Source: Rhodothermus bifroesti (GTDB lineage: Bacteria; Bacteroidota; Rhodothermia; Rhodothermales; Rhodothermaceae). From it: a DNA stretch of 64,000 nt. The notes below the pieces were generated by a model, which was given only the letters and a program-made list of their open reading frames with translations, was not told where the DNA came from and did no database searches. Positions 36,565 through 38,158 of the stretch are shown piece by piece. Every line of letters starts with the position of its first letter. Position 1 is the stretch's first letter. The stretch is taken from NCBI RefSeq assembly GCF_017908595.1, contig NZ_JAGKTL010000002.1:434001-498000 (forward strand). The letters run 5' to 3'. Both the position numbers and the translations under genes were made by a program.

Positions 36565-37074
36565 TTACTCAGATTCTTGCTCTTTTCCTAAAATGCCGCT
36601 AAGAAACGAGAACAGAAAGACCCTGAAAAGTGTATCAGAATAGACAGGCTTAAACGCCTCCACCAGATGCGCCGGAAACTCCCGCTTGGCCGAGACAAAG
36701 ATACGCAGAATAGCATGAAAAGCCTCATCCCGCTTCCCTGCCCGCACAAGCTCTAATATCCGGTATCCCTGACGGTCAAAAGCCTCTTTGAGGACCCGGT
36801 CTTGCTTCAAACGAAAGCCGGTCCGCTTCAAATGCTCCACAAGGTCGGAAGCGTTCCAGCCGGCTACCTGGCAATACAGATTATTGAGTTCTTTCTCGTC
36901 CCTACGCTGCTCTACAGCCCACTGGAGCAGCTCTTGAAGCCTGCGATTGAGCTTCCTTAGCTCGTCGTAAGCCTCGCGAAATTGCTCAACCTTAGGTTCA
37001 CCCTCTCTCAACTGTTTTCCAAGCTCCTGGAGTTTTTCCCCTAATCTTACTTCAGGCAAAGCTGGCATACTCAT
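36565..37074 (-). CDS. Small helical protein, probable separate Cas11 (C-terminal part of Cas8b)
   Basis: A 169-residue protein that is almost wholly alpha-helical and charged, with a coiled-coil-like first half (residues 5-60) and a C-terminal block [41 protein letters not shown] and SFLSGILGK that resembles the C-terminus of Cst1/Cas8b proteins. The start at 37074 is set by GGAGAA six bases upstream; the frame is open 16 codons further but inside cas8b. It overlaps the cas8b end by 23 bases in another frame. In type I-B systems a Cas11 small subunit is often made from an internal start in cas8b; here it would be an independent gene. A frameshifted Cas8b is the alternative. Confidence 0.72.
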
Positions 37075-38158
37075 ATGTGCTTCTCCTTTTTTGCTTTTCT
37101 TCAATGAGAGCGAGCAGATCAAAAATCTGCTCGGCTACCTTAGCAGGATTCTTCCTATTTCTATCAAGTCTCAAATTCTGATTGACAAATTTCTCTTCCG
37201 ATTCCTGCCATTCCGTATCCTTAAGTCCTATGCGCAAGAGGCGGTACCCCAGCTCCATCAGGCGAGAGAAATCCTGATTGAGCACGAGGTTCAAGATAGA
37301 GAACTCTCCGATTTGGCTGAGGAGCGAAGCAATGCGGCGGTCTGCAAGGAGCTGAATGACCCCGTACGGTAGGCTGAAGAACTCGATCTTGACGTGCTTC
37401 TTTTCGTCTATCCAATATTCGCGTCGGCTCACCACCTCAATATTCATCCCCGTCCAGACGCCGAGCGTCGTTTGTATCTTCGTGGCGTATTCGATCACAG
37501 ACATCGCCAGGATCTCTCTTTTCGCTCGCGCTTCTGCAAGCGAGGTTGCGCCGAAAGCCTCCCGAGCAAACTTGTTCAGATAGTACATCACCTTGAACGA
37601 CGGGGCATTAATGAAGATTTCCGAACTGTCGGAGAGCTGGGTAAGGGCAATGTGGTGACACATAAGTATGAACTCACACTTGGGGCACACAAAATCTCTA
37701 GCAGAATTATTCCAATACATGTTACTAAATGATTTTTCTGAGCCAAGCAAGATGTTTCCAAAGGCTTGATTTAAAAACGTGGCATCAGACTTTTTAATTT
37801 TCATTTTTACCGTACAGAAAACGCATGAAAATATGGGAGAAGATTGTCTTGTTTTCGCCCCTTTTGTATCTCCCCCAATCAGCACATTAATTCGCTTTTT
37901 AATAGAACTCTCGGTTTGATTTGCATAATATGCATCTTTCCAACCATAAACCAAACTGGTGCCTTTTTTCGAACGCGGAGACAAGTTCGCCCATCTATCA
38001 AATATCTGGTCGACATCTTTTGTGATCGTTATATGCACGCTTCCATCGTCGATGAGGAATTTTTCAACTTGCTCACCAAGCTCTTCCAATACTATCAGCA
38101 GTCCAACCACTCCTGCATTATACAACCAGTTCGACGGATACAAAGTAATCTTACTCAT
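37052..38158 (-). CDS. cas8b: Cas8b (Cst1-like) large subunit, short form
   Basis: A 368-residue Cst1-type Cas8b, the subunit that recognises the PAM and anchors Cascade. The start KITLYPSNWLYNAGVVGLL is typical, and a zinc-finger-like pair, CVFC at 112-115 and CPKC at 158-161 followed by a Cys-His-His, is intact. Usual family members are about 500-600 residues; this one ends at a TGA just after an A6 tract, and the missing C-terminal helical part is found in the next frame. The ATG at 38158 has GGGAGG upstream and overlaps the cas6 stop by eight bases (ATGAGTAA). The frame is open to 38311 but inside cas6. Confidence 0.83.
   Translation of the reverse strand: MSKITLYPSNWLYNAGVVGLLIVLEELGEQVEKFLIDDGSVHITITKDVDQIFDRWANLSPRSKKGTSLVYGWKDAYYANQTESSIKKRINVLIGGDTKGAKTRQSSPIFSCVFCTVKMKIKKSDATFLNQAFGNILLGSEKSFSNMYWNNSARDFVCPKCEFILMCHHIALTQLSDSSEIFINAPSFKVMYYLNKFAREAFGATSLAEARAKREILAMSVIEYATKIQTTLGVWTGMNIEVVSRREYWIDEKKHVKIEFFSLPYGVIQLLADRRIASLLSQIGEFSILNLVLNQDFSRLMELGYRLLRIGLKDTEWQESEEKFVNQNLRLDRNRKNPAKVAEQIFDLLALIEEKQKRRSTYEYASFA
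37081..37092 (-). promoter_or_regulatory. A6 tract plus ribosome site at the cas8b/cas11 junction
   Basis: On the minus strand a run of six A (37092-37087) is followed at once by GGAGAA (37086-37081), then six bases and the ATG of the small-subunit gene. The same bases can thus act as an internal ribosome site, or as a slippage point: loss of one A joins the two reading frames into one protein of about 537 residues. Confidence 0.65.

Follow-up and report, generated by a model that had tools for sequence, protein, structure and literature searches.

The Cascade complex of type I-B CRISPR systems recognizes the PAM through Cas8b together with Cas5, and copies of Cas11 form the belly of the complex and support the non-target strand (PMC11096372). 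According to a 2026 paper, a distinct cas11 gene is found in types I-A and I-E and not in the other type I systems, type I-B making its Cas11 inside cas8b; the same paper reports that the internal start of the Thermotoga gene failed in Escherichia coli (PMC13199841). The searched passages of the 2025 classification make no mention of a separate cas11 in type I-B (PMC12669027), and no experimental study of a stand-alone type I-B Cas11 was found in the literature searched. Here, we analyzed a stretch of 64,000 nucleotides from Rhodothermus bifroesti (termed the window), carrying a cas operon whose small subunit appears to have a gene of its own.

Results

Gene organization of the locus

The operon lies on the minus strand of the window. 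It begins with cas6, encoding the crRNA endoribonuclease (38151..38954; TIGR01877, E=4e-31; PADLOC Cas6b, E=1.9e-59), and continues with a short cas8b of 368 aa, whose ATG is at 38158 and whose TGA ends at 37052. The following ORF encodes a small protein of 169 aa with the N-terminus MSMPALPEV, starting with ATG at 37074 and ending at 36565. Its probable ribosome-binding site, GGAGAA (37081..37086), is placed 6 nt 5' of the ATG, and a run of six A residues (A6, 37087..37092) lies immediately 5' of that site, close to the 3' end of cas8b. Re-reading of the sequence confirmed the coordinates, start codon, GGAGAA, and A6 run given in the original prediction. The small gene thus possesses its own ATG and GGAGAA and is read in a frame different from that of cas8b. 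Downstream are cas7 (Cst2/DevR, 35456..36547; TIGR02585, E=1.8e-44), cas5b (34487..35446; TIGR01895, E=2.2e-33), and cas3 with HD and helicase parts (31786..34608; TIGR01587, E=3.7e-76; TIGR01596, E=4.2e-23).

The gene set characteristic of type I-B, namely cas6, cas7 (Cst2), cas5b, and cas3 beside cas8b, is therefore present. We read the locus, with a probability of about 0.92, as a type I-B (Cas8b1/Cst1-related) Cascade operon with the order cas6-cas8b-cas11b-cas7-cas5-cas3, in which Cas11 is made from its own gene.

The cas3 ORF as listed overlaps cas5 by 122 nt (window 34487-34608). Its true start is probably the ATG of MSRIWAKS at 34494, as relatives begin with M..IWAKS; with this start, the overlap is 8 nt.

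Identity of the small protein and of the shortened Cas8b

The small protein was matched by two PADLOC profiles, both named Cas11b. PDLC01193 aligned residues 10-168 to profile positions 6-163 of 164 (E=3e-62), and PDLC01190, described as "Small subunit of some of I-B systems", matched with E=1.9e-39. Names in PADLOC are annotations and not experimental results. The original prediction of a stand-alone Cas11-like protein agrees with both matches.

Alignment of profiles with hhalign placed positions 77-168 of the small-subunit profile on positions 485-575 of the 584 in a profile of fused Cas8b proteins (E=1.7e-8); in the control comparison with the split-Cas8b profile the value was 0.005. The alignment is confined to the second half of the small protein, and no counterpart of its first ~70 residues was detected in fused Cas8b. 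The AlphaFold model, like that of the large subunit built on a six-sequence alignment, is all helix with a mean pLDDT of 83. With Foldseek, neither the small- nor the large-subunit model found a match at E below 0.001, so the Cas11 fold is not confirmed by structure. When the small, large, and fused profiles were searched against the sequences of PDB chains, either no match or only chance matches appeared.

The large protein matched the PADLOC Cas8b profile PDLC01204 (E=1.4e-121), whose 337 positions are near the size of the shortened subunit. It also contains the CXXC_CXXC zinc-binding domain PF09706 (32.2 bits against a gathering threshold of 21, E=1.2e-7), and the four cysteines C112, C115, C158, and C161 are invariant across ten relatives, bearing out the earlier description of a zinc-finger large subunit. 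The curated cut-off of NCBIfam TIGR01908 was narrowly missed (18.8 bits versus 19.4). The C-terminal Cas11-like helical domain is absent from the cas8b ORF, which ends in one long helix, and is found in the next gene; the large-subunit profile aligns to the region of fused Cas8b that precedes the Cas11-like part (E=1.6e-20). The AlphaFold model of the large subunit is weak (pLDDT 67).

Relatives with the split arrangement

Neither this cas8b nor the small gene had a detectable copy in six genomes of the same genus, and relatives were therefore sought outside the genus. Nine homologous systems in independent genomes carry a short cas8b, then the small gene, then cas7 (L004, G123, G127, G233, G390, G795, G750, G725, and G744). 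The first of these was found by searching the species collection with Cas7; the other eight emerged when the phylum and two class samples, which overlap each other, were searched with profiles. Together with the window, the split systems encode Cas8b proteins of 358-509 aa and small proteins of 158-185 aa, and the small ORF is kept in position and sequence in all ten. Likewise, PDLC01204 matched the large protein, and PDLC01193 and PDLC01190 the small one, in 10 of 10 systems, so that a separate type I-B Cas11b is already catalogued. Searches of plasmids by tblastn with Cas8b as query and scans of viral contigs gave no match.

Given this conservation in all ten systems, the small ORF is far beyond chance as judged from sequence. 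The gene looks to be under purifying selection, with dN/dS values of 0.03-0.07 where dS was estimable, these being rough because dS is near saturation. Scans against Pfam and NCBIfam yielded no family reaching its cut-off for the small protein, which might be taken to mean that a helical ORF, unrelated or in decay, follows a truncated cas8b pseudogene. Conservation across ten systems, the signs of purifying selection, and the Cas11b profile matches all speak against decay, as do the intact operon and the long array, with identical repeats, elsewhere in this genome, and we regard decay as hardly credible. We conclude that the small gene is a real stand-alone cas11b, of a kind already in profile libraries, on the strength of these sequence comparisons.

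Most of the split relatives found belong to the phylum of the window. The system with a Cas7 58% identical to that of the window (L004, JADBKC010000200.1) has the same split with a stop/start overlap of ATGA. Its contig, only 3 kb long, bears the label of a Bacillales MAG; no match was obtained in 300 further genomes of its class, and the contig may be misbinned. G390 (L019:3750-8123) is the most divergent split system, with cas5 upstream and in the opposite direction; cas3 and cas6 were not recognized in the 9 kb examined. The split operons of G795 and G750 (L068:7790-9408, L069:5566-6367) have small genes between cas7 and cas5 that, judged by eye, look like nucleotidyltransferase-type toxin-antitoxin modules.

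The junction between cas8b and cas11b

The original prediction held that cas8b was split at the A6 tract and that removing one A would fuse the two frames into about 537 residues. With the run as observed, the split genes overlap by 23 nt. Read as A5, the run joins cas8b and the small gene in one frame of 530 aa rather than 537; read as A7, it gives a cas8b of 362 aa and a 4-nt ATGA overlap with cas11. The A6 tract itself is not unusual, since another A6 run is present elsewhere inside cas8b.

A homopolymer whose loss of one residue joins two frames raises the suspicion of an assembly or sequencing indel, by which the true gene would be a normal fused cas8b and A6 should be A5. Nine independent relatives are nevertheless split. 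The small gene starts with ATG in all ten systems, a Shine-Dalgarno-like site precedes it in most, and the case in which close relatives all have an unsplit gene, put forward at the outset as a refutation, proved false. An indel as the origin of the split is extremely improbable and was rejected.

The distance from the cas8b stop to the cas11 ATG is -23 nt in the window and -19, -10, -4, -4, +2 (four systems), and +4 nt in the relatives, and no A-run ahead of the ribosome-binding site is conserved among the nine relatives compared. As the relatives split at differing junctions, the A6 tract is not what divides the gene. With the gene boundary conserved and the junctions variable, a local indel is excluded as the cause and no conserved slip site remains.

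This last point bears on programmed slippage, which had been suggested to yield both fused and split forms. The A6 run adjoins a Shine-Dalgarno-like sequence and is a possible slip site, from which an A5 reading fuses the frames. On the other hand, the run is not conserved, and the frame offset of most relatives differs, several of them stopping before the next start, so that an identical slip there would leave the frames unfused. Slipping at the second A6 run, within cas8b, would do harm. Programmed slippage was thus rejected as very unlikely.

A different possibility is that the split is genuine and that one A is missing in the window, by real loss or assembly error. The usual frame of the clade would then be A7, with a 362-aa Cas8b and the ATGA overlap, and the last ten Cas8b residues would be a recent or false tail. 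The 4-nt ATGA overlap indeed occurs in L004 and G725, the offset modulo 3 is 2 in 8 of 10 systems, the window (1) being one of the two exceptions, and in most relatives Cas8b ends a few residues after LIEEK or LIEDK. However, G744 has a 19-nt overlap with a longer Cas8b tail, and G123 also has an offset of 1, so the state seen in the window is not impossible. We consider a lost A a serious but minority possibility; it is compatible with a stand-alone cas11b and alters nothing about cas11.

Fused relatives and internal starts

Two fused relatives of 587-588 aa, G757 and G772, were present in the same class sample and nearly share the N-terminal motif IxLYPSNWLYNAG. A Cas11b profile matched near the C-terminal end of three of the four fused proteins scanned, and in two of these it was PDLC01193. 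Inside the fused cas8b genes of G757 and G772 (L072:6056-7822, L073:1627-3390), a near-perfect Shine-Dalgarno sequence, AAGGAGGT or AGGAGGT, stands five bases 5' of an in-frame ATG at codon 475. These ATGs, with predicted products of 113-114 aa, are clear candidates for the internal start of Cas11. The fused cas8b genes of Listeria and Acetoanaerobium have AAGGAG ahead of GTG/ATG or TTG (predicted product 104-108 aa), and that of Lactobacillus has weak candidates only; overall, the best internal start predicts a product of 104-114 aa in all but one of the five fused relatives examined. The predicted sites fit the internal-start mechanism of other type I-B systems (PMC11899642, PMC11096372, PMC13199841).

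Such an in-frame start inside cas8 is not the source of Cas11 in the window, where the ORF is separate and in a different frame. It had been proposed that an internal start became an independent gene. The independent gene is borne out by nine relatives and two Cas11b profiles, but the free gene exceeds a mere internal-start product turned independent, its proteins being 158-185 aa long versus 104-114 aa predicted for that product. Because the free genes are ~50-70 residues longer, the gene break lies by that distance upstream of the internal start.

The ten split proteins formed one group in a Cas8b tree (99/99 support), apart from the five fused ones. The tree is unrooted, and the fused lineages are on long branches, as a tool warning indicated. 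Fission seems likelier than fusion as the origin of the arrangement.

CRISPR arrays in the genome

Neither cas4-cas1-cas2 nor an array, both expected at a type I-B locus, was found beside the operon; for the array, this covers the window and 14 kb past either end. The cas4-cas1-cas2 genes adjoin the operon in relatives G233, G725, and G744. The sole cas1 found in the R. bifroesti genome sits on another contig.

An array of 77 identical 30-nt repeats (ATTTCAATACCACAAAGGTGCGATTATTTC) is present on the same contig, ~260 kb from the operon (G000:C2:208547-213609; L089:10548-15611). It was found with a looser repeat pattern, a stricter one having given no array, and no cas genes were recognizable in the 20 kb examined around it. 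Its repeat resembles those adjoining the operons of three relatives and is absent, at up to 3 mismatches, from the six same-genus genomes, four of which have another I-B-like cas7. Being of the clade type and, like cas8b and cas11, absent from these six genomes, the array is the probable partner of the operon, a correlation.

The genome encodes a second type I-B system on contig C5 (L053:7340-15404), with an unsplit 480-aa cas8-like gene, cas7, cas5, cas3, cas4, and cas1. No array was found between 80 and 130 kb of that contig.

Exchange of cas8b in two close operons

Comparison of the operons of G233 (L017 5467-12681) and G127 (L018 2579-9772) gave protein identities of 89% for cas6, 84% for cas11, 94% for cas7, 88% for cas5, and 79% for cas3, versus 48% for cas8b. 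The nucleotide identity falls just within cas8b and recovers just before cas11, so that the affected segment (L018 ~3340-4370) is the body of the large-subunit gene. In the Cas8b tree, G127 falls with G750. We infer that a free cas11 would ease swaps of cas8b, the causal link between the two being conjectural. Put more broadly, it is conceivable, at a little below even odds, that the large subunit of this clade permanently lacks the C-terminal domain, that the inner row of Cascade comes from free Cas11 copies only, and that freeing Cas11 made cas8b an exchangeable PAM-reading cassette, replaced in two close operons in which cas6, cas11, cas7, cas5, and cas3 were kept.

Discussion

The arrangement described here suggests how the complex may be made. 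Ribosomes would translate cas8b and cas11b separately, the latter from its own Shine-Dalgarno sequence and ATG, and the overlap or very short gap between the genes might help translation of cas11b. By analogy, several free Cas11 copies would be expected along the inner side of the Cas7-crRNA filament, where they would hold the displaced DNA strand, their position and number being conjectured from known complexes. Since Cas8b is without the C-terminal domain, one free Cas11 copy presumably fills the place of the covalent domain of ordinary Cas8b. Cas8b itself would remain as the PAM-reading part beside Cas5, and the assembled Cascade would probably use the distant array of 77 repeats.

A natural type I-B system with two clean ORFs is ready-made for expression in other hosts, where a hidden internal start can fail, and simple gene deletions suffice in it to test the roles of Cas8b and Cas11. 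Split and fused forms, when compared, are also informative about how one gene nested in another turns into two genes. The stand-alone cas11 contrasts with the 2026 statement (PMC13199841), yet is already in profile libraries; it is real but not unprecedented, although little studied experimentally.

The ordinary type I-B systems with Cas8b1/Cst1, as in Thermotoga maritima (PMC13199841), Haloferax (PMC11899642), and Synechocystis (PMC11096372), make Cas11 from an internal start. The surrounding gene order is the same as in the window, and the C-terminal helical domain of fused relatives is homologous to the small protein. They differ in that both proteins come from a single ORF and the Cas11-like domain remains part of Cas8b, whereas the window has two ORFs, a Cas8b without the domain, and a longer small protein. 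Types I-A (Csa5) and I-E (Cse2) also have a separate small-subunit gene, but their large subunits differ, and no sequence match was found between the small protein and Csa5 or Cse2. A type III system, of an unrelated subtype, offers a parallel idea, with a free small subunit replacing the C-terminal domain of the large one. Closest is the kind represented by PADLOC Cas11b (PDLC01190, PDLC01193) and Cas8b (PDLC01204), from which we found no difference: both proteins of the window match these profiles over nearly their full length, with the same subtype and role label.
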